Of a stretch of 64,000 nt of DNA, positions 16,084 through 36,306 are shown piece after piece; positions within the stretch are counted from its first letter, which is position 1; each line of letters begins with the position of its first letter. Made by a program: the position numbers and the translations under genes. Under the pieces are notes generated by a model that was given only the letters and a program-made list of their open reading frames with translations, was not told the DNA's origin and made no database searches. The stretch comes from Bradyrhizobium sp. WBAH42 (lineage in GTDB: Bacteria > Pseudomonadota > Alphaproteobacteria > Rhizobiales > Xanthobacteraceae), in assembly GCF_024585265.1 (NCBI RefSeq), contig NZ_CP036533.1, positions 310,001 to 374,000 on the forward strand, in the 5' to 3' direction.

Positions 16084-16803
16084 TTACTTCTTCTTGTCGC
16101 CGCCGGCGGGAGCCTTGGCGGCAGCGGCAGGAGCAGCAGCGGCCGGAGCCGCGGCACCAGCGGCCGGAGCGGCCGCAGCGCCCGGGGCAGCACCAGCAGC
16201 GGCAGCCGCAGCAGCGGCCTTCTGCTCTTCGGCGTAACCGGACGGCGGCACGATGGTGACGAGGGTCGCGTCCTCGCGGGTCAGCGCCTTCACGCCGGCC
16301 GGCAGCTTGATGTCGGCCAGATGCAGGGAGTGACCGATCTCGAGCGCGCCGACATCGGCTTCGATGTATTGCGGGATGCTCTCGACGCCGCATTCGAGCT
16401 CGATCGCGTGGGCGACGATGTTGACGGTGCCGCCGCGCTTCACGCCCGGGGAGCCTTCCGCCTTCACGACGTGCAGGGGAACGCTGATGCGGATGGTGGC
16501 GCCTTCGCCCAGCCGCATGAAGTCGACATGGATCGGGAAGTCCTTGACCGGATCGAGGTGGTAGTCGCGCGGAATGACGCGGTGCTTCTTGCCCTCGAGG
16601 TCGATGTCGACCAGCGTGGTCAGGAACCGGCCGGCGAGGATGCGCTGGCGCAGTTCACGATCTTCGATCGATATCGTCAGCGGGGGCTGGTTGTTGCCGT
16701 AGATCACTCCGGGCACTCGCCCGGCGCGACGCTCAGCCCGGGCGGCCCCCTTGCCGCTCTTCGGACGTGCGGTCGCCTTCAATTCCTTGACGGTCGTCGC
16801 CAT
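16084..16803 (-). CDS. rplY: 50S ribosomal protein L25 (Ctc form)
   Basis: L25 binds 5S rRNA in the large subunit. The 239-residue product is the two-domain CTC form: an N-terminal domain (MATTVKELKATARPKSGKGA through VIYGNNQPPLTISI) and a C-terminal beta domain ending ALTREDATLVTIVPPSGYAE. It closes with an Ala/Pro-rich tail of about 50 residues and a final KKK, as in Bradyrhizobium. The start at 16803 matches the family N-terminus. A hairpin in its 5' leader lies at 16834-16854. Confidence 0.96.
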   Translation of the reverse strand: MATTVKELKATARPKSGKGAARAERRAGRVPGVIYGNNQPPLTISIEDRELRQRILAGRFLTTLVDIDLEGKKHRVIPRDYHLDPVKDFPIHVDFMRLGEGATIRISVPLHVVKAEGSPGVKRGGTVNIVAHAIELECGVESIPQYIEADVGALEIGHSLHLADIKLPAGVKALTREDATLVTIVPPSGYAEEQKAAAAAAAAGAAPGAAAAPAAGAAAPAAAAPAAAAKAPAGGDKKK

Positions 16804-17013: not shown

Positions 17014-17244
17014 GCGTGGTGCCCCAAAGGCACGTCCATCCAGAAGCTGGTGTCGGTGGAAGGCCATCGCTGGGCCATCGAGGACAGCTTCGAAACCGCC
17101 AAGAACGAGCTCGGTCTTGACCACAACGAAACTCGCTCCTGGCGACGTATCCCGCACGCTCACATCCTCGCGTGGTCGTCCTGGCGCAGGGCTCATCAGG
17201 CCAACGCGCGCAAAGCGCATCTCAAGAAAAAAAGGCAACTGTAA
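17014..17244 (+). pseudogene. IS701-like transposase C-terminal remnant
   Basis: The frame reads AWCPKGTSIQKLVSVEGHRW followed by AIEDSFETAKNELGLDHNET, the conserved C-terminal segment of IS701-type DDE transposases, where the acidic residue of EDSFETAK belongs to the active site. After RSW the family sequence is lost, probably by a frameshift, and the frame ends in lysine-rich residues at 17244. There is no N-terminal half. The upstream 16960-17013 bases show nothing else. It marks the start of the accessory region beside rplY. Confidence 0.8.
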
Positions 17245-17742
17245 TGCTAGTCTCTCGATCAACTCCAACATTCACCCTCCAAGGATCGCAACCGGCCTCT
17301 TGCCGATCGAGCCCTTAATGTCAGCCCATAGAGCACCCCTCGCGAATCAGGTGCTCAGCAAGGAATCACAAGTGATTCTTTCGACTCAAGATTTCGCCGA
17401 TCAGCAAACCAGGCCGAGTGGTCAAAGTTATGGGTAATTGAAAGCCTCACCGGATGCTCACCCCAAAGGCGGCCTTTTCGCGGTTATTCAGCTGGCCGCT
17501 CCGGAGCAGCGCGCTTCCCTTCCGCTCGCCTTGCCGTTGCAGGCTCCTTTTCCAGCTGCCGAAGGCACCGCGCGGCGGCTCGCGGGCTAACCGCCAGCGC
17601 CGCCCGACTGCACAGAACCCCCTCGCCCAGAGCTCCCTCCCAAGAAGATGTGGCAGATACGGAGGGGCATCATCGCGGCCAATTGATCCGGGGAAAACGG
17701 GGAATTTCACCCTGCCGCTAAATTCAAGAATGACGGCTGGCC
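17245..17742. other. Gene-free stretch before the tRNA fragment
   Basis: There is no recognisable gene. Open frames on both strands are short and of low quality. The sequence is a mosaic of lower- and higher-GC patches. Confidence 0.6.
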
Positions 17743-17787
17743 TTCACACAGGAGAGGTCCAAGGTTCGATCCCTTGTGCGCTCACCA
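17743..17787 (+). other. tRNA-Val(CAC) 3' fragment, probable att site
   Basis: Read as a tRNA: anticodon loop TTCACAC (U33, anticodon CAC, A37) at 17743-17749, 3' anticodon stem AGGAG, variable loop AGGTC, T-arm CAAGG-TTCGATC-CCTTG with a perfect five-base stem, 3' acceptor strand TGCGCTC, discriminator A and CCA. The five bases before the loop (TGGCC) cannot pair with AGGAG (CTCCT is expected), so tRNA identity stops at the anticodon loop. That is exactly where tyrosine integrases cut tRNA genes. It cannot fold as a functional tRNA. It is the 3' remnant left by integration of a mobile island. Confidence 0.85.
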
Positions 17788-18210
17788 TTTTACGGGCTTT
17801 TTTGAAGCCTCCCAGGTTTTTCCAACGTGAGAGGGTGCTTGTAAGCGAATCGTCGCGTTCACATCGCCGCGATCAGGTCGGAGCTTGAAGTATCTCCGCA
17901 ATCGCGTTTGCGGCTTCACATTCCCAAGCGACCAAAACCTTCCACCTAACCTTCGAAGCTCGTAGGAGCGGCCGGGTAAATGCGCAGTTCTTGGCACGCT
18001 GCGTTTCCCCAGCCATCCACAACGCAGGCACCTCTGACGACGATCATCACACGCTTTTCATGTTATATATTCGCATCTAGCGAGTCGCGGGCATCGGACG
18101 AGGTCGTCTCGACGATCAATTTCTTGGTTCAACACAGAGGCGTCACATGGCTCAATGCACAGCACCGGTGGAAGGGCATCGCTCGGCGGATGCTGCCATC
18201 CGGCACTGCG
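17788..18210. other. Gene-free stretch after the tRNA fragment
   Basis: This is lower-GC sequence with a short T-run after CCA (TTTTACGGGCTTTTTTGAAG), perhaps the old tRNA terminator. No gene is recognised. Confidence 0.55.
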
Positions 18211-18960
18211 CTATTGTTCAATTGGAATCGACCCGCTGAGCCAGAGCGGTGATCCGCCTCCGAACGACCAACCAGCCGTGTAAGCAATCGGTGCGCCGGC
18301 GGGTGCTTTCGCGTACAGCGGCGCATCGGACCATTGCGCCATCCGCGGGTCGGCGCCAAAATGGTAGTTCAACCCGATCTTTCCGATGTGATAGTTGCTG
18401 GACAGCCTGGTTGTGTTCGCCGGAAGAACTGCGAACGGCTGGATTCTGCACCGTGGGAGGCGTTGCGACGCTCGGTGCCCCGAATGCAGATAGTTATGCT
18501 CAGCTTTCACCGACCATGCAGGCGTAAGCGCTTGCTCGACGCCCAGCCCCATGGGGGCACTGAAGCGACCATAGTCAACATGGGTTTTCTCCTGTGGCCA
18601 ATCAAGTTGTGGTTATTGAAGACGTCGCCTCGATTGTTTTGCCAAGCGACGCGCCTCCCTCGAGATAGGCCGGCGTGTGGCCCAGCGCGCCAAACGCGTA
18701 GCCGATGCGGCCGGTCCCGGTGGCAAAGACGTTGCGGCCTGCCTTGCACTTTGCGCTCACGACAAAGCCGCACGCCGCGAGGCAGGTATTGGTGCCGTCG
18801 GAGACGGCACCGCTGGCCTCGAGTTCGACACACCACTCAGCCGTTCTTCCGCCAATTGTAGCCGATCTGGCCACCGGCGAGGAACACTGGGGTATCGACG
18901 ACATCGCCATGGATTGACGAACCGTAGGATTGCTGAGGGAGGTGCGGCCGTTAGCCGCCG
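18211..18960 (-). pseudogene. Broken outer-membrane beta-barrel protein
   Basis: Two frames together match an Omp25/31-like barrel. The upstream part (to about 18602) reads GTGRIGYAFGALGHTPAYLEGGASL. After a frameshift near 18560-18600, the second frame reads GLGVEQALTPAWSVKAEHNY and KIGLNYHFGADPRMAQW, then an Ala/Pro-rich WSDAPLYAKAPAG tail. The family signature (GVExALTPxWSxKxEYxY) is clear. The gene lacks a clean N-terminus and signal peptide, so it is inactive. The original protein was probably a surface porin or adhesin of rhizobial type. Confidence 0.65.
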
Positions 18961-19159
18961 CCGCCGCAAAGAGAGCAAGTCGCGTGCCGTAGGGAATTCG
19001 CGGGCTCTGCAGGCACTTCGTCGCGGCGTGCGGCGTCAAGTTGCTGACATTGTGTCAATACCGACAGCCGCGCAGCCACTGCCCTGCCAGCAATACTTAG
19101 CTGGCGCGGTGTCATGGGTCCACGCTCACAAGGCGCTGGTCTCCCTGGGCCGCCGATCG

Positions 19160-19262
19160 GCGTCGGACCCCCGCGCCCACTCAAAATTGGCCCTCAGCTC
19201 GTACTTGGTCGGCGTCTGCACGGGCAGATCAGCCGGCTTCGCACCGGCACCCTTAGCAGGAC
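19160..19262 (-). pseudogene. Remnant of ABC substrate-binding protein (ABC_sub_bind)
   Basis: The minus strand reads GAKPADLPVQTPTKYEL, the conserved near-C-terminal signature of PF04392 binding proteins (normally continuing VINLKTAKALG). It then runs out of frame. Only about thirty codons survive and there is no start. It is one more sign of decay in this region. Confidence 0.6.
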
Positions 19263-19382
19263 CATCTTAAGCCATGCAGGAGCGGCCCCGACGTCAGCCT
19301 CCTCTTCCTCCAAAACGCGGACGAAGTTGCCGGGCGGGCCTCGGCCTCACTCAAATCGGACGCATGCCCGCGCTGCTTAGCT

Positions 19383-20420
19383 TTACACTTCTGGATCTGA
19401 AATGCGGGTCAGCATTCTCACGTGCGGTCCCGCCCGTTTGAAGATCGGCTCCCAAAAGGCATAGGCGTCCTCGACGAAACTCTCGGTTACGGTGAACTTC
19501 GTGAGCGCGCCCCGATATGCGGCCTGTCGCCGGCAGCCCTGCCCCTCCACAAGGTGCCAGATGAATTGAGCGACCTGGCGTGCGTATGTGCTCGGACGAC
19601 CTTGGTGGTTGGGTACGATCTCAAGTCGCATGGTCCCAGCGTCACGCGTCTGCGGTTCGGTGATATTGGCAAGCCAGATGAAAATTGATGGATCAATGCT
19701 CGCGGCATAGCCGTCGCGCTTGAGCTGCTGATTGATGATAGAGAACGCGCTGGCGGCTTCTCTGAAGCATTCGCTCAGGATGAAGTTCGCCTCATTCTCC
19801 AGCTTTCCGCTCCGAAGATCGTCCAGTAATCTGACCGCCTCGTCAGTGAGCCGCCGCATGTATCGCGGTTGGGGCTGCTTTGCGTCGTCGTTTGGTTCCT
19901 CCTGTACAATCAATTCGACCGCATCCGCGCGGAACTCCGTTGCGGCATCTTTGAGAACGGGCAAAAAATCGCTTTCAACGCAGGAATCGCCGACGTCTTT
20001 CGACGCCGCGTCGCCTCCCACCCGTGTCTCCACAAGATTCTTTGCGTGGTCCAACGCAACGTTCAGGCTGGCTTTGAGGTTTTCAGAAGCTCTTTCTTGA
20101 GAGTCCTCGACAGCCTTTACCATCATCTCCGCGGTACTGTCGGATTCTATGAGTTCGTCCTTAAGTGGCGCCGCCGCATTCCGAGATTCAAGCTCCGCAA
20201 AGGGGCTCGGAGCCGTCGCTTGCTTTGCTAGGATCGTTTGATCAGACGTATTCGCGCCTGTGTGCTCCGATCGCGGATTGGAAGCAGCAATCTCGCCGGA
20301 CAATACAAACAGGCCATCGTCAACGGCTCGGCTCGCCGCCGCGGTAAGATCCACCAGCGAGCGCCGCACGCATCGCGTCTGCCTAGCGCGCCGCTTTTTC
20401 GTTTCTTGCATATGGCTCAT
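19383..20420 (-). CDS. ParA-linked protein with phasin-like segment
   Basis: This intact 345-residue gene begins 38 bases inside the 3' end of the ParA-like gene, with GAGGGG ten bases before ATG 20420, so it is translationally coupled to it. The first 90 residues are basic then low-complexity. Residues about 100-165 read as long helices (AEMMVKAVEDSQERASENLK, then ASLNVALDHAKNLVET) that recall phasins, the PHB-granule coat proteins. A basic-to-acidic hinge (QPQPRYMRRL) leads to a C-terminal domain with TYARQVAQFIWHLVEGQGCR and FWEPIFKRAGPHVRM that I cannot name. It could be the cargo adaptor for ParA. The phasin match is by eye only. Confidence 0.7.
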   Translation of the reverse strand: MSHMQETKKRRARQTRCVRRSLVDLTAAASRAVDDGLFVLSGEIAASNPRSEHTGANTSDQTILAKQATAPSPFAELESRNAAAPLKDELIESDSTAEMMVKAVEDSQERASENLKASLNVALDHAKNLVETRVGGDAASKDVGDSCVESDFLPVLKDAATEFRADAVELIVQEEPNDDAKQPQPRYMRRLTDEAVRLLDDLRSGKLENEANFILSECFREAASAFSIINQQLKRDGYAASIDPSIFIWLANITEPQTRDAGTMRLEIVPNHQGRPSTYARQVAQFIWHLVEGQGCRRQAAYRGALTKFTVTESFVEDAYAFWEPIFKRAGPHVRMLTRISDPEV

Positions 20421-21051
20421 GATCTGACGACCCCTCGACAAGCTTTTTTAAGACCCAGCGCCACAGCTCACGAACTTCCTCCGAGGCTCTTCCCTGTTGT
20501 GCAAACTCGGTCACGCCTAATCCTGCCCCAAGTGCGTCCTGGTGGTCATTGCGCTGTCCGACATAGGGAAGCGCAAGCACCCCGAGCGAATTGAGCGACG
20601 TTGCAGCTTCGCTCAGGCGACAGCCCCGCGGTGGCGTCTGATTGAGGACGAAAGCAAATCGGCGGTTGAGCCTAAGAATAGCACTCACCGTCGGTATCGC
20701 AGCTTCGATGTCGGCTGGACTCGGACGCACCGGGATCAGGCAAAGATCGGTCTTCGCGATGGCGCGCATGGCCAGTGCATTGTTTGTGGCGGCGGTATCG
20801 ATGACCGTAAGCCAGATCCCCTCAGCTTCAAGGCTGACGAGCGCCCCTTCTATTTCGGCGGGATCGGCGACCCGAACGACCCGCGGATGAGGATGGCCGC
20901 GCCGCTCTACCCATTTTGAAATCGTGCCTTGTAGATCCGCGTCGACAATTGCGACGCGCTCCCCGTTCCCCGCCGCTGCGACTGCAATTCCGACCGCCAG
21001 CGTGCTCTTGCCGCTTCCGCCTTTTTGGGTGACCAGAGCAAGGACATACAT
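20383..21051 (-). CDS. ParA/MinD-type ATPase (orphan)
   Basis: The protein has 222 residues. It starts MYVLALVTQKGGSGKSTLAV; KGGSGKST is the deviant Walker A motif of ParA-family ATPases. IVDADLQGTISKWVERRG and LTVIDTAATNNALAMRAI are the A' and Walker B/switch II regions, and LCLIPVRPSPADIEAA and FVLNQTPPRG follow. Such proteins form nucleoid-bound gradients that move plasmids, chromosomes or protein cargoes. There is no ParB; the downstream overlapping gene is the only partner. A longer frame to 21153 has no homology, so ATG 21051 is taken. It is intact although its surroundings are decayed. Confidence 0.88.
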   Translation of the reverse strand: MYVLALVTQKGGSGKSTLAVGIAVAAAGNGERVAIVDADLQGTISKWVERRGHPHPRVVRVADPAEIEGALVSLEAEGIWLTVIDTAATNNALAMRAIAKTDLCLIPVRPSPADIEAAIPTVSAILRLNRRFAFVLNQTPPRGCRLSEAATSLNSLGVLALPYVGQRNDHQDALGAGLGVTEFAQQGRASEEVRELWRWVLKKLVEGSSDHEPYARNEKAAR

Positions 21052-21564
21052 TGCCTGCGCCTCCAGACAACAACGACATGAAACGCACGAGTCGTCGAAA
21101 ACACTTAGCCTACGGATCGGTGACCTACCATTCCCCATCGTGAATCGCATCAAGAGCGAGCGTGGAACTCACAGCCAAATCAAGCCCACCACCAACGGTA
21201 TACCGCGAGATGGTGCAACGTCCGCTCGTACCTCATAAAATCGATCGGCCTCCGACGCTGTCGAGATATCCTTATTCTGCGACCAAGTTCGCCCACTTCA
21301 AAGACGCAGAGGATAGTAATCGCGGCTCAACAGCCGGAGTAAGCCTACAAGATCATGTAGTTGTAGTACTGCTGTTTACAAGGCTCTCTCCTGAAGCCTG
21401 TCGCTGACACCGGGGAAGCCATGTCGACAGTTGCCAGCGCAATTCGGCGCCTTTGGTGCCGAAGCTTTCTTGCTCTTCTGGTGATCATCGCGGTCACTGC
21501 TTTGATCGCGGTCCTGACCAGCCCCCAGCTTGGTGCGACAATCGAAGCTCTCGAGCCGCCTGGC
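21052..21564. other. Gene-free stretch upstream of parA-like gene
   Basis: It contains no recognised gene. A short frame from 21421 encodes a hydrophobic segment (CRSFLALLVIIAVTALIAVL) that stops at 21582; it may be an unrelated leader or a relic of the P450 gene N-terminus. The ParA promoter should lie here. Confidence 0.5.
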
Positions 21565-22723
21565 TGGCGGCGAAGTTCCTGAAATGGATGATCGCCAAAC
21601 ATCCGGATGCGTTGTTCGCACTAATCCAGCGCGTCAGGCCCAACTTGGCGTTCGGCGTCGCGGGCCGGTGTTCATCACCCGCTTCCCCGACGTGCAGGAA
21701 GCGCTGACATCTTCAACGCAACCTATGCGCCGATGATGGACCCTTTCGTCGGCCCCTTCATGCTCGGCCGCGACTGCACCGAAATTTACCAGCGCGACAA
21801 GGGTTTCATGCGCGCCTTCATGCGCATGGAGGATCTGCCGGCAATTCGCCAGAAAGTGCGCAGCCTCGCCAACGCGTCCGTCGAAAGCAGCTCTAATACC
21901 CAGAACCAGATCGACGTGGTCAGCACGTTGTCGCGCCTGGTGCCCATTCAGCTGACCGGAGAATATTTCGGCTTTCCCGGCCCAGATCTGGCGTCGTGTT
22001 CCGCTGGTCGCGCGCCAGTTGCACCAGGACAACACTGACGCTGGGCAGGAGATGCGCGCCTACCTGACACAGCTGCTAGCACAACGGCGCGAGCAGCTGA
22101 ACACCGGCGCGCCGCTCGACGACGTGTTCAGCCGTTTGCTGAAAAGTCATTTTGACGATTCGATCGGCTTCGCTGACGAACGCATTATTACCAACATGAT
22201 GGGCACGCTGGTCGGCGGAATCGAGACGACTTCGGCGGCAATCGTACAGCTCCACGAGCAGTTGTTCAAACGTCCGAAGATCCTGAAGGAGCCGATCGAC
22301 GCCGCCTACAGCAACGACGATCATCTGATGTATCGCTATTGCTGGGAAGCGCTGCGCTTCAACTCAATCAATCCGTTCGTGGTGCGCCAGTCCCGGACCG
22401 ATTACCGGATAGCCAAGGGCTCGTTGCGCGCGGCAACAATGAAGGCCGGCAGCACGCTGCTGATCTCGACCCGGTCGGCGATGCGGGACGGCTTGAAATT
22501 GCCGGCGCCGTCCAGCTTCGCCATCGACCGGCAGCAGTCGGTCTATATGCATTTGGGCTACGGGATGCACACCTGCCTCGGCGACGAGATCAGCCGCATC
22601 CAGGTTCCGGAAATCGTTCGCCGGATCCTGCAAATCCGCGGGGTGCGTCCCGCCGCGGAGATTGACTACGCAGGAGGGCCGTTTCCAGAGCGTTATCCGA
22701 TCACCTACGACACAGCCGCCTGA
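21565..22723 (+). pseudogene. Cytochrome P450, frameshifted
   Basis: P450 homology runs through at least three frames: AKFLKWMIAKHPDALFALI, AGRRGPVF.. joined to FPDVQEAL, then MMDPFVGPFMLGRDCTEIYQ through LTGEYFGFPGPDL (21733-22038), then from 22019 the I-helix GTLVGGIETTSAA, the ExxR region YRYCWEALRFN and the haem loop HLGYGMHTCLGDE holding the cysteine ligand. The frame changes near 21700 and 22000 break the gene, although the C-terminal 230 codons are open. Similar P450s occur on rhizobial symbiosis islands. A P450 of this type would hydroxylate a lipid or terpenoid; here it is dead. Confidence 0.8.
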
Positions 22724-22929
22724 AGGGCAGACTTCCCAACAACGAGCATAGTCGCCCAGTGCCCCACTAACCTAGATCGCTGGCGCGATGTTCTGGGCGC
22801 GCAGGCGACCAGGCGAAGCCTTCGGTCTGCTCGAAGCGCTTGGCGAATGTCTCCTCGAGGTCCTCCTCGGACGGAAACGTCGCGTCGTCGGCAAGACGGC
22901 CGAGGGTCGACCCGTCCATCAGCATGAGG

Positions 22930-23330
22930 TCGACGTCGCGGGGAGATCGCCGCCTCGCCGGTGGGCGAACGGCGGCGAAGAAACGCTGGATGCTTACGGC
23001 ATAGATGGCCCCTCCGATCTTCCGGCGGAGCACCTCGCGTGGATGAGGGCGCTGCCACTTCAATTTCGCGACGAGCACAGGTTGTTTGTTCATGCCGAAG
23101 TAAGACCAGGCGTTGACTTGGAGGCTCAATCCAAGGGTGATATGTTGTGGATACGTGAACCGTTCCTATCCTCAAGGCTGTGGCACGGTGCACTCGTGGT
23201 GCACGGCTATACGCCGACAAGCAACGCGTACCCCGGACGTTCAAGCCAATCGCGTCAACATTGATACAGGAGCTTGCTTCGGGGACCTCTCACGGGGGAC
23301 CTCTCACGGCAGCAGCATTTGGTCCGGTAC
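22930..23330 (+). pseudogene. Metallophosphatase (Ser/Thr phosphatase type) remnant
   Basis: The plus strand reads NGGEETLDAYGIDGPSDLPA, then RLFVHAEVRPGVDLEAQSKG and DMLWIREPFLSS, and in a shifted frame VNIDTGACFG and GGPLTAAAF. These are the C-terminal signatures of calcineurin-like phosphoesterases of the diadenosine-tetraphosphatase type (FVHAGxRPG, metal-binding His; VVHGYTP; INIDTGAxxGGPLTA). The N-terminal metal-binding half is missing and two frameshifts break the rest. Minus-strand frames here, such as 22767-23129, show no homology. Confidence 0.65.
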
Positions 23331-23634
23331 TGTCGGGGCCTCTGTTCTGTCTCGACAAGCAGATGCTGCTCGGTCCACGGTCGCGCGATGTCTCGGCCGC
23401 CACGATGTCTGCAGTGGAGCCTCAAGAGTCGCTCGCTCCCGGTCTTTCCCTATTGAAGCGGCCAAGACGATCAATATGCCGGTTCAGGCGCGCCCTAAAC
23501 GAACTCCTGACTGAACTTCCGTCTCTTGGTCGCTCAATTCCGTCTTCTTGAACACCCAATCTCAGTATCCAGCAAAGCTGGTAGCAGCTTATCTGAGCAT
23601 ACCTCAGAATTGAACGAGACCACAAGCCCATCGC
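23331..23634. other. Gene-free stretch
   Basis: No gene was recognised between the phosphatase remnant and the acetoacetate-decarboxylase-type gene. Confidence 0.5.
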
Positions 23635-24411
23635 TCACTGTTTACCTGGATTTGTGTCTTCCGATAGGATGTCAATCACCTTGAGCCTGGCGTCATACTC
23701 CTCGTATGAGCCGAGCACGGCTTGTCCAACTGACAAATTGTGCACGGGGTCCACTATTGAGGGGGAGTCGTAGGTTAGGGAGGTGGGTCCGGTAAAGTGA
23801 ACTTCCTCACCAAACTCGTCGCGTCGCAACGTTCTGGCGGTGCACCACTTGATGAGTTGCGTTACTGCTCCTTTTCCGCTCTCATTGATGGGCGGAAGAT
23901 GTCGAACCGAATAGAAATACGTTCGCGCAGAGTGCGTCTGCTGGGAGTCCGAACTCTTGCGCTGGTCTGGTTGCGCGGTGAGGGTCAGTAGGCGCTTGCC
24001 GGCCGGACGCTCGAGCGTTCCCTGAAATAGACCGCCCTCTCTAATCAGAGTAATGTGCGCCAGCTTTTTTGGAGCACCAAGAACCTCTCGTCCCGAGGCG
24101 AGCGCGGCATCGTTTGTTGTCACGTAAATGTAAGGAATGTAAAAGCCAATCTCACCGCCCGAATCACGAACTTGAATTCCTGAATAGCACTCCAAGTATG
24201 ACCCCACTGTGCTTGAGGGATAGCTCGCGACGCCAACAATGGCGATTGCTGGGTTTGCAGACGGTACTAACCCCTTCGGCAATAGATGGCGAACCTCGTT
24301 CCCCACGCTGAATATATGGTTTAAGGCTCGGCAGCGGAGGAATGTGCTGCCAAGGTCTTTGCTCCCATGGTAGAGGGGCGCATCAAACGGAATACCTTTA
24401 ACGTCGGGCAT
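23635..24411 (-). CDS. Acetoacetate decarboxylase family protein
   Basis: An intact 258-residue protein. SYLECYSGIQV and GEIGFYIPYIYVTTNDAALA precede GREVLGAPKKLAHITL; the first Lys of PKKLA is the Schiff-base lysine of acetoacetate decarboxylases, and the SYLE glutamate is kept. True members turn acetoacetate into acetone and CO2, but ADC-like relatives use other keto acids. The middle (residues about 150-185) is Ser/Gln/Arg-rich and divergent. Lower GC and codon use than the core genes point to foreign origin. It stands alone; a promoter would lie in 24412-24600. Confidence 0.82.
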   Translation of the reverse strand: MPDVKGIPFDAPLYHGSKDLGSTFLRCRALNHIFSVGNEVRHLLPKGLVPSANPAIAIVGVASYPSSTVGSYLECYSGIQVRDSGGEIGFYIPYIYVTTNDAALASGREVLGAPKKLAHITLIREGGLFQGTLERPAGKRLLTLTAQPDQRKSSDSQQTHSARTYFYSVRHLPPINESGKGAVTQLIKWCTARTLRRDEFGEEVHFTGPTSLTYDSPSIVDPVHNLSVGQAVLGSYEEYDARLKVIDILSEDTNPGKQ

Positions 24412-25804
24412 GGCATCCCTCCTCGCTCTTGAGGGTTTACAATCGGAGAGCCAACTGACTCATGTCAAGACTTTCTGGTTGTGGAAGCATGATGAAGAGA
24501 GTGTAATGTGCGCCCTCGTATGCGGCTTACGCGTCCGTCGGCTTATAGTGAAGATCGGAATTGTCCTTACGAGGCCGCCTTGCACCTTAGTTTTGTATTG
24601 CTGAATGGGCTTGACGTTGTGCATACATTCCGGAGAAGCGTACTGGGGATGACATTGAGTCAATGCGACTCGCAATTTATGGTTATGCAACGTCAATGCC
24701 ATCGTCTCGTTATGGGGGGCTAGACGGATTGCTCGGCTGCAGATGACGAACTGGAGTACGAGAGCCCACCGACAACTTCGCTTCTTGTCTTGTTGCCTTC
24801 CGCGCTTGTTTGTTTGATGGCACAGAATGTTAAAAGTCCGACATGACTAAACGCGGAGGCAACGATGAGGAGGTTCGCAAAGCGGTCGAATTCGTGGCTA
24901 GCTTGACTAAACTAGATCGGCCGCGACAGCTATCTCGGTGCATGGCCGAAATACATCCTCGCGGATACCGACGTCCCGCGAGGCACGTCGGTAGAGCTCC
25001 AGAACCGTATAAATTCTGGTGAGTTTGCGTTCTTGTCAGTGTCTGGCGCGGCGCTTGCACAGAATGGATACTCCAGTTCGCACATTCGGAGAACATGCAT
25101 CGTTATATTCCAGCTCCTCGCGCTACCGCTCACAAAGAGCTCGCTAACCATCTGCCCATTGGGATACGACATTATTGGAGGCAACCCAGCCGACGATTAG
25201 TCGTGCCTGAGCGGCGAGCGCATGTCCGCGACCTCAGGATCGTCAGCATGAGTCTCATGCGTGATGCGGGAAGACCTTGCCCGCCAGTGACCGAGGAACC
25301 GCGCCGGAAGTGTCACAAGCATTTCTTGGTCCTGTCAGCGCACGAGTCCTCTTACCTTGCCGGCTCTGAAAATTCGTTGTCGATGGGCGGTCTGACGATC
25401 GGCGTCCCGCACGTGTCAGGCCCCTGAAAACATCTTCTGACTATCAGCTGAGGGACCGTCTCATCAAAACGAGAGTATGAGTCGCGATACTACAGAAGTG
25501 GAAATCCAGAAAGCTAAGCATCAGCGACAGCAGTGCGCCGGCATCCGAGACGCGCGGCGGATCATAGAGATCCTGGGGTTCGCGGGCCGCTTCCGCTGCG
25601 ACCCTGTTCTTTGCGAACGTCAAAGCGTCAGCGCGTCGCCGAAGGGGCACTGTTGCGCGGCGCGCGGCGAGCTAGATGCCGTCGTTCATCAACTCGGTCT
25701 AGCGCTACGTTGGCAGAAACTGTTTTCGCCACTGTTTTTCAAGGGTTTACTTTCGGCAATATGGACACTGCTAAGAGGGTGGCCGAAAGGGAGAGATCGA
25801 TGAT
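24412..25804. other. Low-GC, gene-free stretch
   Basis: Nearly 1.4 kb, AT-richer than the core. Short open frames exist on both strands, for example a plus-strand one starting MTKRGGNDEEVRKAVEFV at 24843, but none is conserved enough to name. I see no nod box or clear promoter by eye. It probably holds decayed genes. Confidence 0.5.
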
Positions 25805-26110
25805 GGCGTGACGTGCGGTGGGCATGGTTGGTTGAGGCGGAGGCCGGGTGATTCTGTTGTTTCCGCCCCGCGTGTGCGAGGCGACGAGTTGCAGGAGGCG
25901 TAGGCGATCATTGTCTTCAGGGGCGTGGCGATGAAGTCCCCTACCATGATCGCCCTTCAAAGTGATCAAGTCCAAGCGCCTCCTTCTGCTGATGCGCCTG
26001 CTCACAAATCCACCGTGCCCTTGATAGTTGCGGCCAGCGTGCGCAGATCCGTCGCCGCCGGAAGATTGGCGAGATAGTATTCTCGTGTGCGGGCGAAACG
26101 GGCATCTCTC
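25805..26110 (-). pseudogene. IS701-family transposase C-terminal remnant
   Basis: On the minus strand, through two frames, it reads [20 protein letters not shown], then [15 protein letters not shown] residues ([19 protein letters not shown] in the adjacent frame), then RPPPQPTMPTARHAII. This is the final part of an IS701-type transposase (xYYLxNLPxxTxLRTLAxxIKxRWxCEQ then [19 protein letters not shown]). There are several frameshifts and no N-terminal half. It is a different subgroup from the remnant at 17014-17244. Confidence 0.72.
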
Positions 26111-26423
26111 CCGCGGTCACGCGACCGTTTGACCGTGTGAGCCTTGCCGCTCTGCTGGAGCTACTTTAGGATTCAAGCGTTCCCCCGCTCCTAACGGCGC
26201 GAGCGCGACCCGATTCCTTTCCGTGCAGGCCCCCTGCTCAACGATGTCGAACTGGTCACGGAGCCGGCCCGCAGACACTCGCGTGGCGACATGGTCCAGC
26301 TCGGCGAACCAGTCTCGCTCAGGGCAACCTCGTCCTTGTCTCTAGTACCAACGCAGGTCACGGCATTCTTGCGGGGAAAGTGGCCAGGATCGTCAAGCCG
26401 TTTTTCACGATGAGGCGCAATGC

Positions 26424-26545
26424 ATGGGCATAGGCCTCTCGATTGCGCATACTATCGTCGAAGCGTATGGCGGCCGCATCGGGCGAGAACGTCCCGTCAG
26501 GGGGCGCGTCTTTCACGTCAGCCTGCCGCTTACTGTGGCGCGATG
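26424..26545 (+). pseudogene. Histidine-kinase C-terminal scrap
   Basis: MGIGLSIAHTIVEAYGGRIG followed by VFHVSLPLT is the G2 box and closing strand of a HATPase_c domain, as at the end of FixL-like sensor kinases. No more of the kinase is present; upstream bases to 26111 have no recognisable coding sequence. Confidence 0.7.
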
Positions 26546-26569
26546 GCGACGCCCTTCCCGGCGAACGCC

Positions 26570-28129
26570 TCACACGAACGCTTTCTCCAGCGTCGCGAAG
26601 ATCACGGCGAACGACTTGTCGTGGCGCGTCACCGGCGGCACCGGGCGATCGATCTTCATGAGCTGATAGACCGCCATCTGCGCCGCACGCACCGAATATT
26701 CGACTGTGAACACGACGTCGTCGGGAACTTCGACGAACTGGCTGACGAAGGCGAGGTTGACGGAATTCCTGGGCACCGGCAGCGGCCGGTCGGCCAGGTT
26801 GCGCGGCATGAACATGCTGGTGATGTAGGGCATGCGGCAGGGAATGCAGATCGCATCCTCGAACACATTCGCGTCGAAGTTGAGGTGACCGCAGAGCTCC
26901 TTCAGGATCTCTGCGCCGCCGCAATTGGACATCGGCTTTGCCACGAAATTGCCGACGCGGTCGGGATGCAGCGCATAGCCCCAGAACACCTGAACGTTGT
27001 TCGGCTGCCCCGTGAAATGTGGCTGGTGATAGAGCACGACCGACATCAGCCAGTTGGAATCCTTGAACGTGACCAGCCCGCCGGTGCCGGCCCTGTTGCC
27101 GGAGAACGCTTCCATCTGGTCGAAGAAGCGTGGATCGCCGCAGGTGACGGTGAAGGACAGCCAATAGGATTCGGGAATCGAATTATTGAACGCCGACGGA
27201 TTGCCGAATTCGGGACGTCCTTGCGCGATCGTCTCCCAGAGCGCCCAGCCCTGACTGTCGGCCTTGGTCAGGCGCGGCGGCGGCTCGGTCATCAAGCCCA
27301 GGCTCGAAGCATCCGTCATCGAGCCGTTCTGGAAGAAGACGATGTCGTCGCCCTCAAGCCGGACGTTGGCGGTGTGGCTGTCGCGGTCGAGCGTGAGCTG
27401 GCGCACCCGCAAGCGCCCGCAGTCGGCCGCGAACGCCATGTCGACGACGCGCGTGCCGCGCACAAACTGCACGCCCTGGCGCTTGAGCCAGTCCGCGAGC
27501 GGCCGCACGATCGCGTCATACTGGTTGTAGACGGTACGCTTGACGCCGCCGAGCGTCTCGATGCGCGGAAACTCGTTCACGAAACGATGCAGATAGCGCT
27601 TCAGCTCGACCGCGCTGTGCCAGGGCTGGAAGGCGAAGGTGGTCTGCCACATGTACCAGAAATTCGATTCGAAGAATCCGGGCGACAGCCAGTCGGTGAT
27701 GCGGCTGTTGCCGAGCGTCTCCTCCGAAGCCTCGGTGAGCCGAAGCAGCTCGAGCCGGTCGCGTGCGGAGAAGCCCATATGCCAGACATCGACCTTGAAG
27801 CGGTTACGGTCGACCAGACGTGCCCTGGAGTGCGCAGGATTTTCCACGTTGAATGCGACCGTCTCCTCGCGCACGCTGCGGCCCGGATGCTCGAGCGAGG
27901 GAATGCTGGAGAGCAAATCCCAGGTGCATTCGTAGTGATCCGTGGTAAGCATGCGCCCGCCGCGAAGCGAGTAGGCGCCGTTCGCGAGCTGCGCGCCGTC
28001 GAGGCTCCCACCGACCAGCGGCTGCGCCTCGTAGATCACGATGTCGCGCCCCGGCAGCTGCGCATCGCGGACGAGGAACGCCGCGCCCGCGAGCGATCCA
28101 ATGCCGCCGCCGATAAAATACGCCTTCAT
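26570..28129 (-). CDS. Oleate hydratase (MCRA family)
   Basis: The 519-residue enzyme is FAD-dependent and adds water to the cis-9 double bond of oleic acid to give 10-hydroxystearate. It starts MKAYFIGGGIGSLAGAAFLV, with the GxGxxG dinucleotide motif, then IVIYEAQPLVGGSLDG. Later segments typical of the family are FFESNFWYMWQTTFAFQPWH, VKRTVYNQYDAIVRPLADWL, WALWETIAQGRPEFGNPSAF and PCRMPYITSMFMPR. The length is in the normal range. The start at 28129 replaces an upstream ATG with no homology. GC is high, close to the core, unlike its neighbours. It is flanked by a kinase scrap and an IS5 remnant. Confidence 0.93.
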   Translation of the reverse strand: MKAYFIGGGIGSLAGAAFLVRDAQLPGRDIVIYEAQPLVGGSLDGAQLANGAYSLRGGRMLTTDHYECTWDLLSSIPSLEHPGRSVREETVAFNVENPAHSRARLVDRNRFKVDVWHMGFSARDRLELLRLTEASEETLGNSRITDWLSPGFFESNFWYMWQTTFAFQPWHSAVELKRYLHRFVNEFPRIETLGGVKRTVYNQYDAIVRPLADWLKRQGVQFVRGTRVVDMAFAADCGRLRVRQLTLDRDSHTANVRLEGDDIVFFQNGSMTDASSLGLMTEPPPRLTKADSQGWALWETIAQGRPEFGNPSAFNNSIPESYWLSFTVTCGDPRFFDQMEAFSGNRAGTGGLVTFKDSNWLMSVVLYHQPHFTGQPNNVQVFWGYALHPDRVGNFVAKPMSNCGGAEILKELCGHLNFDANVFEDAICIPCRMPYITSMFMPRNLADRPLPVPRNSVNLAFVSQFVEVPDDVVFTVEYSVRAAQMAVYQLMKIDRPVPPVTRHDKSFAVIFATLEKAFV

Positions 28130-28224
28130 GACTTGCCTCGATTGCAATTCGACAATTCGAAGCAACATAGCATGGCCGGACGCATCCAAGGTTGCGCTGG
28201 ATCAAGCGGGGTGAGGACTGGCTC

Positions 28225-28905
28225 AGCTACGCGGAAAGGCGACCGATTGAGCCGTTGTTGCCGCGAAGACGCAAGGGAGCGCATCGGGTCGATGCTCGAT
28301 GCGTGATTAACGGCATTGTCCAGTTGCCAAAAGCAGGTTCGCGCTGGCATGATTGCCCGGAAGTCTACGGTCCGTACACAACGGTGTACAACCGCGTCAG
28401 TCGCTGGAGCCGAGAGGGGATTTGGACAAACGTTTTTACGCTCTGACTGAATCAAGCGGCGTGTCCGGCTCGATCTCGGTGGATTCCAGCTAAATCAAAG
28501 GCCATGGCCCCGCGACCGGCCCAAAAAAGAGGGACCTTTAACAAGGCGATCGGCTGCTCGCGCGGCGAACGACCACCAAAATCCAAGTGTTGATCGACAA
28601 TGTTGGCCGCCCGCTTCTTTCCTGATTACTCCTGGCAACACTCACGCAGCCCGCGTCGTCGGCTGATCGAGCCTACGCCGTCAGAAGCTTGCGCGACGGG
28701 TTGGCCGCACGCCGCTCAAGGCTGTCATGCGGCCGAATCCGCGCCGCAAGCATCCGCATCGCTGCGATAGAGCCTACAGAGGGCGCAATGTCATTAGCGA
28801 TGATCCGCCGTCTCGCAGACGTCCGACAGATCGCAACCTGATACGACAGGCGCGCAGAATCGTCCTGTTTGCAATCTTCTTGGCAGCAGGAGGTGCAAAG
28901 CGGGT
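28225..28905 (+). pseudogene. IS5-family transposase, multiply frameshifted
   Basis: The open N-terminal part (to about 28446) reads PLLPRRRKGAHRVDARCVIN then GSRWHDCPEVYGPYTTVYNR and RWSREGIW. The match continues through TKIQVLIDNVGRPL-like residues near 28575 in other frames and ends with MRPNPRRKHPHRCDRAYRGR near 28727-28800, the conserved PNPxRKxPxxxDxxxYRxRNxIER segment. Stops and shifts make it inactive. Both IS ends are lost. Confidence 0.78.
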
Positions 28906-29159
28906 ACTACTGCCATAGCTCGATAGCCTCCCGCGCCTGGTCCGACGCGGTCACCATCAGCCGGCTGGCGCACTCAGGGTTAGCAGCATTGATTATTGGC
29001 CCTAGCCACGCGGTCTGCGATACGTCAGCATCGTCTGTAATGTACATCTCGGATCGTGATCCTGTTGCTGGACGAGGAGCCCTGCAGTCGCCCGGGGACG
29101 GCTCGCTGCGCATCACTCAATCGCGATCCTCGCCAGCGACCGGCGCGGAGGCTTAGGGC
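28906..29159. other. Short unassigned stretch
   Basis: A minus-strand open frame contains MYITDDADVSQTAWLGPIIN, but I recognise no family. Confidence 0.4.
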
Positions 29160-29345
29160 GACGCCGAGGCAAAAGGCCCCGCCGCACACGGTTCAGGTCG
29201 CAGATCGCTGGCATTTGAAGGAGAGCGCCAGCCGGGCTTCCTCGAAGGACCGGGAATTCTGCCCAGCTCTGCGCCTTTCCGCACGCCGATCTGAAGCTGA
29301 TCAGTTCCTTCTTGCCCTGCCGCGTCGCGCCAATCAGCACCAGCT
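29160..29345 (-). pseudogene. IS256-family transposase scrap
   Basis: MLIGATRQGKKELISFRSAC, then GKAQSWAEF, matches the core of mutator-type transposases (IGAxxxGKKELxxFxxGxRESAQSWRELL). Only about sixty codons survive, with a shifted remainder in 29345-29500. Confidence 0.68.
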
Positions 29346-29615
29346 TGCACTAGCCGTGCTCTTCCCTGCGGGCCTGTAGAAGAGGCTATCCGGGCGCGTG
29401 CGCCCGACGTGCCTGCAAATCGCACATCTCTTCGCGACGCTCGGTCATGGCGTATCGCTCTCTTTGAGAAGTTCTGTGGTATTCGGCGTCCGCCTCCTAC
29501 GCAGCCCATCTCAAGCAGTCACCCCCTACGTTACTGCATAGCACTGCTCGAAAGTGCTATTTAGGACAAGTGTCTCAATCTTGAAAGCGGTGTCGGGGTC
29601 TGCTGGAAGGCGTCG

Positions 29616-29735
29616 CTAGTGCGCTCGCACGGATGCGCGTTCTTTGCCACGCCCGAAATATCTCACGACTACGACGTAGAAGACCGGCACAAAGATCTGC
29701 TTGGAGATGATGTGCATCGAGATGAGCGCGTAACG
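29616..29735 (-). pseudogene. RND efflux pump C-terminal scrap
   Basis: The minus strand reads IFVPVFYVVVVRYFGRGKER before a stop at 29616-29618. This is the usual last membrane helix and tail of AcrB/MexF-type pumps. The upstream sequence is garbled, so only the final forty codons are traceable. Rhizobial islands often carry such pumps near nodulation genes. Confidence 0.45.
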
Positions 29736-30785
29736 CTTGCTATCTGAGGCCGTCTTTATGTGATACTCGGCGGGATTTCGATTTGCCTACGGGAACCCTG
29801 TGGCCTTCACCTCCATCGATTCGACTGGAAACGAGATCGGCTGCCACGCTGGCGAAAGCCACTCGCAATCCAGCTTTCGTTTGCAGTTTGTTACAAGGGA
29901 TAAAATCAAAAGTTGCCCGGTTGCGACGGGTTTCCTCGCTTGGCTCGTCATCCGTAGCGCCGGGGACTACGTGCGGCTGCAGTCCCGGCTGTCCCGGAGC
30001 CAGCGCGACCAGCGCCAGCACGTTCAGAACTTTCGGACTTGCGAAGGGCGTCACCGCCGGTTGCTGCGGCAGTGCTGCGGTCAGCTTCGCGACCTGCGCT
30101 GGCGCACAGTTGGGCGGCGCGGAGGAGCCCGGGACAGCTCTGGGCAAACACACTGATTGCGTAGCCCTACGCTTGCGTTGGATAGTAGCGCTCAGAAAGA
30201 CCTGCGCGGCAACTACGAAAACTAGTTGCATCCATTCGCTCCTGAAAGATGGCTGTCGTACAGCGGACTTCGAATGTATCAAGCAGGTCTTCGTGACAAT
30301 TGAATTCCTCATGCAAGCTGCCGGGCCTCGTTAGGAGGAGACAACCTTGGCCAGGGGCTTCAGATCAATCACAGCGCGCTAGCGGTTGATGCGCACGACA
30401 TTGCGGCGCTAACGACAGGGTCGTCACTAGGATCCCCGATGGCGTATCCCCGGACACAAACGCGGAGCCATGCTTGCCATCGAGATAGCCTCCGGTCCGG
30501 CGATTTTCCGAGGAGCTTTCATGCCGAAGCGAGGTCGATCTTTTGTTTCGTCACCTGCTCATTTTTATGCGGCTCATTGGCGCGGCCGCTCAGCAGCCTC
30601 CGGTCGGTTTCTTCGCTGTACCGCCAGCTTCGATTATCCCGCGAACAAGCAGACACCTGGGCAAAATCGGACATTGGTAAACGTCCCGTGCAGCGTCTCC
30701 ACGTCTGGAAGATGAGATTGCCAGGATTGGCAAGGCGCCGATGCGAACCGGCCTCTCGTCGCAGACGGTAGAGGCCAAGAGTCCT
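29736..30785. other. Unassigned stretch with one doubtful ORF
   Basis: A minus-strand frame at 29740-30312 could encode up to 190 residues including a hydrophobic start (MQLVFVVAAQVFLSATI) and a Pro/Ala-rich middle. It lacks homology I can name and its opposite strand is equally open, so it is not called as a gene. From 30313 to 30785 I see nothing. Confidence 0.4.
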
Positions 30786-32432
30786 CTATTTGGTCACCGG
30801 GCAAGTCCCCGGATGGTTGCAGCGTGGAGGCGTCGATCGCGTGGTCGCGCTAACCTCCTCGGACGCCGGTCCTTCTGCTCCATTGAGAACGGCCGAGACG
30901 CGCCAGCGATATGTTGTTTGCGGCCTAAGATCGGAATCGCCGAAGCTGGCTCCTGCAACCTCGCCGATCCTCTGAAATGTGTCATCAGGGCCTGCACGCA
31001 GCACGCGGTATGTCGTTGCTTCTACCAGCGGCGACCAGACCAGGTCAACGCTAGTATCAGAAGCATCGATCACCGTGAGCCCCTGAGGTGCTGATGTCAA
31101 TTGCCGCGTCGCGCTGACGGGCGTCGCGCCATCGGCCGCGAGCGCGTCGAGCATAGCCTTGACCGCTTGGATCTGCGCCCCAGACTTGGTCACGTAGCTG
31201 CTCGTGTGATTGACGTAGCCCCACCAGTCCCAGCAGGCCTGCGGATTGGTGGGCCGATATAAGCTGGTCCTGGTCTGTGGATAGAGAATGATCAAACGGT
31301 TCGTATCCGCCCAGGCATTATAGCCGGTATCATTGACGAACTTGAGCCCGATCTCGCGGGCATTCTGGCGGCATCCGTGCAGCGCCACGTGGACACGGCA
31401 GAGAGCACCTTGCTCGCAGTCCTGAGGCACGAAGAGATAGCCGGTATCGCTCAGGCTCAACGCGGCGGGCGCCTGCGGCCTGGTATAGAGTGACTGATCG
31501 AAGCTCTTCACGACGCCCGCGAGCTGCCCGCGATTAGGTGGATTGAGGCGGCCATAAATATGCTGCAGGATGATTCCGGCCTGATCGTAGCCGCATTGGT
31601 CAATATACGGTTCCTTGTTAGCACTGCAGCTATTCAGTCCGGTGTCGCCCTGCTTGGCCACCACGAAGGAGTGCCCGGCGCCGAGGGCGGTCTGATAGAA
31701 GAGATTGCCTCGATTGGAGCCACCTAGATAGCGACGGTAGAAGTCGGCAGCCGCATCGGTGACGGCCCTATCGACGACCGCGTCGTTGTAGCCGTGAAAG
31801 AGATAGATCTTCTGCCCGGCAAGGTTACTATCCGGATCTATTTTGCCTGCTGACGCGTTCGCATCAGCCTTCGTCGTGAACGCCGTGATGTTCAGGCCCG
31901 ATGCAGGCCCTTTCATGCAGGGACCCGTCGCGCGCCACATCTTGGCCTCAGCGCACCAATAGGGACCGCCAGCGACCACCCCCACTCCCTTGACGATCGA
32001 GGACCAGGCTGCGCCGAACTGGACTGCCATGAAGGCGCCTGATGAAATGCCGGAGATCGAGCTCTCGCCGATCGGCGCGTGATAGCTGCGCAATGCCAAG
32101 GGCTCGGCAGAGAGAGGCGACATTCCAACGACCGCGGCGCAAATGGCGCCGATAGCGTGTTGCCGCAAGATGGCCAAGCCGTCGAAAAACGTGCTAATCG
32201 AACCGACGCGCAGTCTCCGGTGTTCATGTGAAAACGCGCCATCGGAACAAGAAATCACTCGCCAGTTCGGAAAAGGATTCTGCGGATTACCACAGTCGAC
32301 CGTCTGCCTGCCGTCCCGCGGCAGCGCCGACGTGATGATCGTGTCGGGCTGGTTCGGCTCCGAGGCAACAGGCGTGACGAGCGCCCCCTTGAGCATCCGT
32401 CCGCTTTGATCGATCAGTTTCTGGTAGGCCAT
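30786..32432 (-). CDS. PHB depolymerase-type secreted esterase with FN3 domain
   Basis: The 548-residue protein belongs to the short-chain PHA depolymerase (type 2 catalytic domain) family, which cuts poly(3-hydroxybutyrate) or oligomers outside the cytoplasm. The nucleophile is in GISSGAFMAVQF, the acid in YLFHGYNDAVVDRAV, the His in ALGAGHSFVV, and HVALHGCRQN forms the oxyanion side. A fibronectin type III domain (about residues 450-535) ends the protein, with CNHPGTCPVTK as tail. The hydrophobic signal (HAIGAICAAVVGMSPLSA) begins only near residue 92; about 75 unusual residues precede it, so the true start may be internal or the front may be a fusion. It is intact in a decayed setting. Confidence 0.85.
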   Translation of the reverse strand: MAYQKLIDQSGRMLKGALVTPVASEPNQPDTIITSALPRDGRQTVDCGNPQNPFPNWRVISCSDGAFSHEHRRLRVGSISTFFDGLAILRQHAIGAICAAVVGMSPLSAEPLALRSYHAPIGESSISGISSGAFMAVQFGAAWSSIVKGVGVVAGGPYWCAEAKMWRATGPCMKGPASGLNITAFTTKADANASAGKIDPDSNLAGQKIYLFHGYNDAVVDRAVTDAAADFYRRYLGGSNRGNLFYQTALGAGHSFVVAKQGDTGLNSCSANKEPYIDQCGYDQAGIILQHIYGRLNPPNRGQLAGVVKSFDQSLYTRPQAPAALSLSDTGYLFVPQDCEQGALCRVHVALHGCRQNAREIGLKFVNDTGYNAWADTNRLIILYPQTRTSLYRPTNPQACWDWWGYVNHTSSYVTKSGAQIQAVKAMLDALAADGATPVSATRQLTSAPQGLTVIDASDTSVDLVWSPLVEATTYRVLRAGPDDTFQRIGEVAGASFGDSDLRPQTTYRWRVSAVLNGAEGPASEEVSATTRSTPPRCNHPGTCPVTK

Positions 32433-33259
32433 GTCTGATCTCCTTCATCTGGTCAGACGTTCCCGGACGCCGCCGGGAAAGCGGGGGATAGGTGCTGGTG
32501 GAAGAAATTCTTGACAGGCGATCAATGCGCACGAGGAATTCGCATGTTGAAGCGAAGATACCGAAGCTGGTTTCTGGGTTTTCGCCAGCCGAAAACCACT
32601 AACTCGATTATGATACGAGTAGAATCCCAGCTAATGGCTGGGTTCTGCGCCAATGAACTGCTATGCGTTTGGACATTGTGGCATACTACGCTGCCGAAAC
32701 CGATGCCGACGTCAGCGGTCGCTTCGCTTGGCACTCCTTATCAACAGTTCGCTAATGCAAGATGTTCGATCCTTCTAACCAACCCTAGTGTTGATTCGTT
32801 GAACGTTCCACCCGCCAAAACTTGTAGGTTCAACCTACCCTGTTGAGTTCAGCGCGCCTGCGTGTGTCAATTCAAGTCGCTGGACGAAATGCCGTCAGAA
32901 GTCGACATTGGTATGCTGGTCAACTGCACAGTTATTCATAAGACCGTCGTCTGATTGCGGGATTTGCAAGCGACCTTCACGCACGCTTTTTAGAATCGCA
33001 ATCCTTGTTGCCAGGCTCTACGAGCCGCTTCGCTCCGGCCGAGAGCACTTTGGAGAAGGTGATAGGCTTGGGTCGTGGGTAAGGTAGAATATTCAGCTTC
33101 CAATGAGCTTGTTCGTGAGAGTGAAGCCGAGCACGAAAGAATAAAGGCGGAAATCATAGCCACCGAGCAGCGGTGACGTAGTGATCGCACGAGGGACGAT
33201 TCTGCTCGGAGCAGTTGTCGTTGGGCACGGGCGATCCGAACCATCCTCAGACCCAGTGA
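32433..33259. other. Gene-free, AT-rich stretch
   Basis: No recognisable gene. Open frames are short and without start signals. It lies upstream of the depolymerase and must hold its promoter. Confidence 0.5.
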
Positions 33260-33510
33260 AAACTCGAGCGCTGGCATCAGACGCTGAAGAACCGCATTCT
33301 GCTCGACAACTGCGACCGACCCGATGATCTCGAAGATCAAGTAGGGGCCTTCGTCGAGCCCTATGATCACGTCCGCTATCATGAGAGCATCGACAACCTC
33401 ACGCCAGCCGATGTCTACTGCGGCAGGGCCTGAGGCGATCCTCCCCGAACGAAACCGCATCAAGCGCGACACATCGCAAACCGCCGCTTGCAGCATCAAC
33501 TGCAGGCCGC
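33260..33510 (+). pseudogene. IS3-family transposase OrfB C-terminal remnant
   Basis: The plus strand reads ERWHQTLKNRILLDNCDRPD, then FVEPYDHVRYHESIDNLTPA and DVYCGRA, followed after a frameshift by EAILPERNRIKRDT. This is the end of the rve-type DDE transposase of IS3 elements (RYHESxxNLTPADVYFGR). The large minus-strand open frame that covers it is an artefact. Confidence 0.82.
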
Positions 33511-33875
33511 TTAACTCTAACGCTGATGAGCCAGAGCCTTCCTTGTCAAAGAGCCTGACCAGTCGCAAATTATCTGACGATGGCCAGGCGACGGCTCCGG
33601 TTTTAGGCAGTTTTTGTTTGATAGAGCGGTCGCAGGTCCGTCCAAGACTTCTGGGGCGTCTCCTGTGGTCACGGCTCCGCGCCTGGCGATCGCTCCAGCC
33701 GGCGCGCAACATGTACAAGTGCTCAAACCTCCTAACAATGGTAGAGTCGAGATGCCAGCCGGAGATGATAATTCGCCGGCGCGTATGGTTCTTCGAAAAT
33801 TCCCGACTGCTTCAGAGCCGATGCTGAGTTATTGAAGCTGAAGTGGCCAAACTACTGAGAATTTCGACTTCTAGC
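33511..33875. other. Unassigned stretch between IS3 and excisionase remnants
   Basis: Nothing recognisable on either strand. Confidence 0.45.
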
Positions 33876-34001: not shown

Positions 34002-34146
34002 CAGTGCGAATGATAAAACCTCGTGGTGGGTCGATTTCACGGTCAACTCCACTCGATATGGAAAACGTAGTCTCGAGAACACGAAGGCCGGTGCGCATGC
34101 GTACGAAGCGACCTTGCGACAACAGCTAGCGTGGCGATATCGATAG
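33998..34146 (+). pseudogene. Tyrosine integrase N-terminal remnant
   Basis: ATG at 33998 opens MTVRMIKPRG; after a one-base shift near 34025 the frame continues WWVDFTVNSTRYGKRSLENT then KAGAHAYEATLRQQLA, and stops at 34144. This is the arm-binding N-terminus of phage-type integrases (WWVDFxVxGxRYRxRSPENxKAGAxAYEAxLRxxLAxG). The core-binding and catalytic domains are gone, cut off at the IS3 remnant. Confidence 0.75.
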
Positions 34147-34214
34147 ATACCGGAGCGACACGGCCGAAGACCTTTGCCGAGTTCGCGGTGAAATGTGACC
34201 TTGCCTCCAAGTAT

Positions 34215-36062: not shown

Positions 36063-36063
36063 T

Positions 36064-36306
36064 TAGTCCCGGCATTTGCTGGAGCGGGTTGAGTTTGAAT
36101 CGTTCTGGCTGGGAAGTCCAGCATTTGCAAATGTATTCGTAGGGTGTGAGGCCATTCAGGGTCTTCAGCCGCCGAGCATAGTTGTAGGCGTTGATGAAGT
36201 CGGCAAGGTGAGCTTCGAGCTGATCGTGTCGATCGTAGTAATAGCGTTGGACGGTCGCTTCCTTGATCGTGCGGTTCATTCGTTCGACCTGGCCATTGGT
36301 CGTCAT
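36064..36306 (-). pseudogene. IS481-family transposase C-terminal remnant
   Basis: TTNGQVERMNRTIKEATVQR, then ADFINAYNYARRLKTLNGLT and PYEYICKCWTSQPERF, ending QQMPGLN, is the C-terminal third of an IS481 transposase, including the catalytic Glu (ERMNRT). The front is cut at 36306, where core sequence starts, and the end runs straight into the IS5 remnant. Confidence 0.85.

Follow-up and report, generated by a model that had tools for sequence, protein, structure and literature searches.

A tRNA-Val(CAC) attachment-site scar in a probably displaced island segment next to rplY of Bradyrhizobium sp. WBAH42

In the window, by which we mean the whole 64-kb stretch of WBAH42 DNA that was analyzed, a conserved block of core genes around rplY gives way to accessory DNA, and core sequence resumes at a potassium/proton antiporter gene. 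Near its left edge the accessory DNA holds a 45-base 3' piece of a tRNA-Val(CAC) gene. The features are as follows (window coordinates, with the strand where one is assigned):

16084..16803, minus strand: rplY (ribosomal protein L25/TL5), core, left of the junction, followed by pth and ychF
17016..17017: breakpoint at the left core edge; past it, the 12 relatives examined carry DNA homologous to C1:2003936-2004437
17017..17255, plus strand: junction filler, a transposase C-terminal remnant at the left edge of the accessory DNA
17256..17742, plus strand: DNA 5' of the scar, which accompanies it in three relatives (17256-18742 conserved at 94-95%)
17743..17787, plus strand: attachment-site scar (F1), 45-base 3' piece of tRNA-Val(CAC), 43/45 identical to the WBAH42 gene
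17788..20434, plus strand: DNA 3' of the scar, also conserved in those three relatives (94-98%, small gaps)
20383-21153: ParA-like ATPase gene, below the NCBIfam cut-off
20435..23452: 3-kb stretch absent from the relatives' copies of the segment
22019-22723: P450-like C-terminal piece, below the NCBIfam cut-off
23453..33761: remainder of the shared segment
23635-24411: acetoacetate-decarboxylase domain
26570-28189: oleate hydratase
30786-32432: PHA depolymerase
34126-34866, minus strand: rve_3 transposase-like ORF, right end of the accessory stretch
35768-36463, minus strand: DUF4096 transposase-like ORF, right end of the accessory stretch
36570: core resumes; potassium/proton antiporter gene at 36568-38361

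The WBAH42 genome is a single contig (C1) of 8,285,880 bases, in which the sole intact tRNA-Val(CAC) gene lies at C1:118907-118981 on the plus strand. The scar runs from the anticodon loop TTCACAC to CCA and corresponds to the 3' end of this resident gene, CCA included. It is identical to the last 45 bases (C1:118937-118981) at all but two positions (E = 4e-15); a uniform base model predicts about 1e-16 matches with two or fewer mismatches in a genome of this size. Immediately 5' of TTCACAC, identity to the tRNA falls to 12/30, compared with 43/45 in the 3' part. An earlier note, made from the letters alone, had recognized a tRNA-Val(CAC) 3' piece from TTCACAC to CCA at 17743-17787 and had remarked that the preceding bases fail to complete the anticodon stem, and both observations hold. 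The same note called the piece exact, which it is not: CACACG has become CACACA just past the anticodon loop, and GCGCCC has become GCGCTC in the acceptor stem. The intact gene with the same last 45 bases that it proposed to look for elsewhere in the genome was found, at C1:118907-118981, although as a match with these two differences. ARAGORN called no tRNA gene over the 64-kb window, and RNA folding was uninformative, as the minimum-energy structure of the intact tRNA-Val itself lacks a cloverleaf.

Such pieces form a class within the genus. Extra tRNA-Val 3' pieces, at least 22 in total, occur in at least 17 of 35 same-genus relatives. Twenty fragments of the 45-base class were aligned with their flanks, leaving out a G028 fragment and a longer G002 piece (positions 10-75), and in all 20 the tRNA identity starts at the same base or within ∼3 bases; the 5' boundary of the WBAH42 scar at TTCACAC is thus that of the other att copies in this alignment. 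The arm ATTGTGG stands just 5' of the boundary in 11 of the 20. A tyrosine integrase of one family (Arm-DNA-bind_3 plus Phage_integrase) abuts seven of them, as well as one tRNA-Val fragment of strain SSBR45G; the other 13 gave no match to this family. No integrase gene adjoins the WBAH42 scar on its 5' side, and tblastn with two of the integrases returned no match in the 64-kb window or in the copy of the segment in G236 (see below), but a decayed scar need not retain its integrase gene. The scar is an attachment-site relic of island integration at tRNA-Val(CAC), a known kind, and the earlier note's reading of it as a tRNA-Val integration scar is borne out by the start base shared among relatives and by the integrases at 7 of 20 fragments.

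Two further partial copies are present in WBAH42. F2 (C1:8112509-8112558, minus strand) has a 387-amino acid tyrosine integrase ORF (PF00589) ∼350 bases off on its 5' side, the two together spanning C1:8112509-8114069; this integrase did not match the integrase loci at the relatives' tRNA-Val fragments. F3 lies at C1:7765153-7765207 on the minus strand. About 400 bases from F3, in the opposite orientation and 43 kb from nodA, another 3' piece runs from CTCTTAA to CCA (C1 about 7765609-7765655), presumably from a tRNA-Lys gene; F3 and this piece are possibly two att scars lying close together. In G236, ∼4.1 kb separates the tRNA-Val gene from a second 3' piece that is followed by native-like flank (C1:7459692-7463883), possibly a small tRNA-Val element. 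A Bradyrhizobium septentrionale plasmid also has a stretch of 51 bases that matches the scar region at 94% (NZ_CP088290.1:103780-103830), resembling the lone tRNA-Val att scar published for the Sym plasmid of strain 187; transposed att sites are likewise reported for USDA6 and E109 (PMC9174649, PMC9239051).

The two substitutions make the scar traceable. The same mutated sequence with the same flanks was found in Bradyrhizobium sp. RP6, in B. yuanmingense CCBAU 10071, and in the complete genome G236, that is, in 4 of 265 genus genomes with WBAH42 counted; RP6 (G060/G174) and CCBAU 10071 (G061/G289) each carry two handles that were taken as the same genome, their contig numbers and coordinates agreeing. 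The 955-base 3' flank matches 75 of the 265 genomes (WBAH42 included), but from its first base only four (WBAH42 again included). The remaining matches start at base 405 or later, in a stretch resembling an outer membrane protein gene, and were left out of the scar count; window positions 18202-18742 resemble outer membrane beta-barrel protein genes, a label that comes from a plasmid annotation. Across the three relatives, 17256-33761 is kept in order at 94-98% identity, minus the 3-kb stretch at 20435-23452, which is found only in WBAH42. The ParA-like ATPase gene and the P450-like piece (20383-22723) fall mostly within this stretch without counterpart.

The surroundings of the segment in the relatives are those of an island. 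The RP6 copy lies in 99.6 kb that is ∼99.9% identical to G236 1507780-1588113 and, inverted, to 1600228-1619359, and the 20.9-kb contig of CCBAU 10071 is 99.7% identical to RP6. Several transposase families are represented in the RP6 stretch, which also has an octopine-dehydrogenase-like and a C48-peptidase gene, and the G236 stretch has 59-61% G+C, as against 64-65% for the WBAH42 core at 90-130 kb. In two of the three relatives, then, the scar sits inside ∼99 kb of low-G+C, transposase-bearing DNA, and it seems to be carried in the interior of a large accessory island. This parent island may have been a symbiosis island. NodA and NifH gave no match in 160 kb of G236, and in WBAH42 nodA (7,722,510) and nifH (6,936,775) are both away from the segment. 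Beside the segment, G236 has a 1.16-kb stretch that is single-copy in the DNA compared and corresponds to WBAH42 8206446-8207594 at 95.8%, which suggests that the segment was formerly attached to the low-G+C region of WBAH42 at ∼8.07-8.27 Mb.

Both ends of the accessory stretch were compared with relatives picked from the 35 same-genus genomes, 12 at rplY and 11 at window 36570. On the left, core conservation stops between window 16943 and 17016 (at 17016 in G008), and what lies upstream of rplY in all 12 relatives has its homologue in WBAH42 at C1:2003936-2004437. This DNA had given no match to the WBAH42 stretches around F2, F3, and others before it was located at 1.98-2.00 Mb. The junction between rplY and the segment is absent from all 12, so the join is novel in WBAH42. 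The filler at this join yields E 0.0028 against PF01609, below the curated cut-off, and its portion 17017-17143 matches C1:8161739-8161865 at 92%. On the right, the next DNA shared beyond window 36570 in 11 of 11 relatives is homologous to WBAH42 C1:612852 onward, at distances of 50 bases to 9.7 kb. The relatives differ at the joins on both sides, so rplY and the antiporter gene did not adjoin each other ancestrally, and the accessory segment occupies the junction of a rearrangement. No copy of the segment is present at the WBAH42 breakpoints at 2.004 Mb and 0.613 Mb, and a single two-ended inversion is therefore not demonstrated. The segment meets the rplY side at 17017-17256, placing the scar 0.5-0.7 kb from the join with its flanks kept; the scar is thus not the point of recombination.

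The arrangement of the intact gene and the fragment invites a simpler explanation, in which tRNA-Val(CAC) at 118.9 kb was the entry site of an island whose right end, at 327.8 kb, is closed by the fragment as a true attR. The two are indeed direct repeats on the plus strand, 209 kb apart. However, the DNA directly 3' of the intact tRNA (CGCTTCGCC...) is the same as in G008, G026, G029, G018, and G014 (five of 29 relatives' loci viewed). Because this native flank follows the intact tRNA, the WBAH42 attB is empty, with no large element integrated at it. What follows the fragment on its 3' side differs from the DNA native to the region downstream of the tRNA, so that the comparison of these two flanks, which the earlier note had suggested, went against an island end here. 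The distance from tRNA-Val to rplY is 207 kb in WBAH42 and, in the same orientation, 218 kb (G008), 221 kb (G029), and 222 kb (G002); it is 262 kb in G011. Three 10-kb samples taken between the two genes, all from one relative (G008), map in order to WBAH42, one of them over ∼6 of 10 kb. From the similar distances and the order of the samples, the stretch is core as far as sampled, and the samples disclosed none of the accessory DNA that an attR would imply between tRNA and fragment. As far as these comparisons go, a simple 209-kb island is refuted, and we consider it almost certainly wrong. As a caveat, G008 and G029 lack, at the corresponding place, the DNA that WBAH42 has at ∼119.2-125.0 kb, just past the native flank of the tRNA; most of it is present in G005, beside its fragment.

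Another possibility is that a tRNA-Val element was cut by a large inversion, the fragment being the true end of its far half. This is the arrangement in G005, G021, G027, and G009, where the intact tRNA-Val keeps its upstream core and the fragment lies megabases away with the tRNA's native downstream core on its 3' side, within 0.1 to 6.7 kb. There are published precedents: a split island with inversion is described for USDA110 (PMC4036050), and bipartite tRNA-Val symICEs are modelled with split and inversion (PMC9174649; PMC9239051). In WBAH42, by contrast, it is the intact tRNA that has its native core downstream, the very arrangement that counts against such an end, and on each side the scar is bordered by DNA that relatives also carry, at other places; we hold this explanation to be very improbable. 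Integration at a secondary attB, whether the scar itself or something like it close to rplY, fares no better and is likewise very unlikely. The accessory DNA does start within 0.8 kb of the scar, but the core junction is 0.7 kb from it and falls at a transposase remnant. A search of the 20 kb upstream of rplY for the tRNA-Val piece found it in none of the 12 relatives, whereas the same pattern recovers the copies in the window and in G005. A second att copy at ∼36.5 kb was looked for and not found, and the window did not match the two integrases tested. Insertion at rplY was rejected on these grounds. The earlier note had placed the edge of an inserted island here, and that part of it fails, given the native flank at the tRNA, the sampled core, the foreign 3' flank of the fragment, the flanks shared with three relatives, and the join 0.5-0.7 kb away. 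Its alternative guess of an inversion or a composite island came near the mark.

We therefore consider it likely that the scar is a fossil att site inside a displaced, decayed island piece that was moved next to rplY, and not a local edge of integration. A tyrosine-integrase element would have entered tRNA-Val(CAC) and duplicated the 45-base core, and a larger accessory island would then have come to carry this duplicated core in its interior. When the chromosome was later rearranged, a decayed part of the island (17256-33761, flanked on either side by transposase remnants) would have ended up against the core DNA upstream of rplY, bringing the scar along; the scar would accordingly mark no site-specific integration at the rplY locus. 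This order of events is the one we infer, and the remnants suggest that insertion sequences took part in the rearrangement. The relatives' island could instead have acquired the segment; against this, the core junctions are novel in WBAH42 alone among the genomes compared.

Within the displaced-piece reading, the scar may well be the join of two elements once in tandem at tRNA-Val, the right end of one and the left end of the other, the pair having later moved in a larger island, though we lean slightly against this. Two or three scars stand 4 to 62 kb apart in G005, G013, and G027, and the scar region aligns with a G025 scar over 88 bases (83%), ∼40 of them in the 3' flank. In USDA6, one tRNA gene is reported to hold several islands (PMC3927601). 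On the other hand, no element-end genes were recognized beside the WBAH42 scar, and no copy of such a pair was found at a tRNA. An unlikely extension is that the segment is a third part, now detached, of what was once a tRNA-Val symbiosis element, and that its loss from the main island helped to lock the remaining parts in place. If that were true, fossil att sites in islands would record the dismembering and immobilizing of polypartite elements.

By way of comparison with published systems, the S23321 paper describes, next to symbiosis island B of USDA110, a partial tRNA-Val of 45 bp (PMC4036050), so the USDA110 precedent that the earlier note mentioned is in print. The WBAH42 scar derives from the same tRNA gene and equals the reported piece in length, but the USDA110 copy, as presented there, borders the island and a homologous native flank, whereas the WBAH42 scar is internal to island-like DNA in a piece that has probably moved (PMC4036050). 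Bipartite tRNA-Val symICEs, which pair a large element at tRNA-Val with a small one at ybgC, share the tRNA-Val target, the large inversions, and the att copies left behind (PMC9174649, PMC9239051). Unlike in those systems, the tRNA-Val site of WBAH42 is empty and the scar has no integrase. Deletion and duplication mediated by insertion sequences are reported for bradyrhizobial symbiosis islands, with pieces reshuffled by recombination at copies of these sequences; that report shows deletions and duplications and no move to rplY (PMC8692435). In WBAH42 a role for insertion sequences is suggested by the remnants.

A tRNA 3' fragment beside core DNA thus need not mark an integration site, since scars can hitchhike in island pieces. 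A method that matched each tRNA gene to its closest 3' fragment would in this case miscall a 209-kb, mostly core stretch as an island. The shared mutated scar, in turn, can serve to trace the history of a single island segment among Bradyrhizobium strains.

Elsewhere in the window, two RNAs score above the Rfam gathering score, a Rhizobiales-2 sRNA (53655-53751, plus strand) and a chrB-b RNA (56776-56825, minus strand). Window 36351-36438 contains a repeat of ∼80 bases with many copies across the WBAH42 stretches compared, and this repeat also occurs just downstream of tRNA-Val in G008 and G026.
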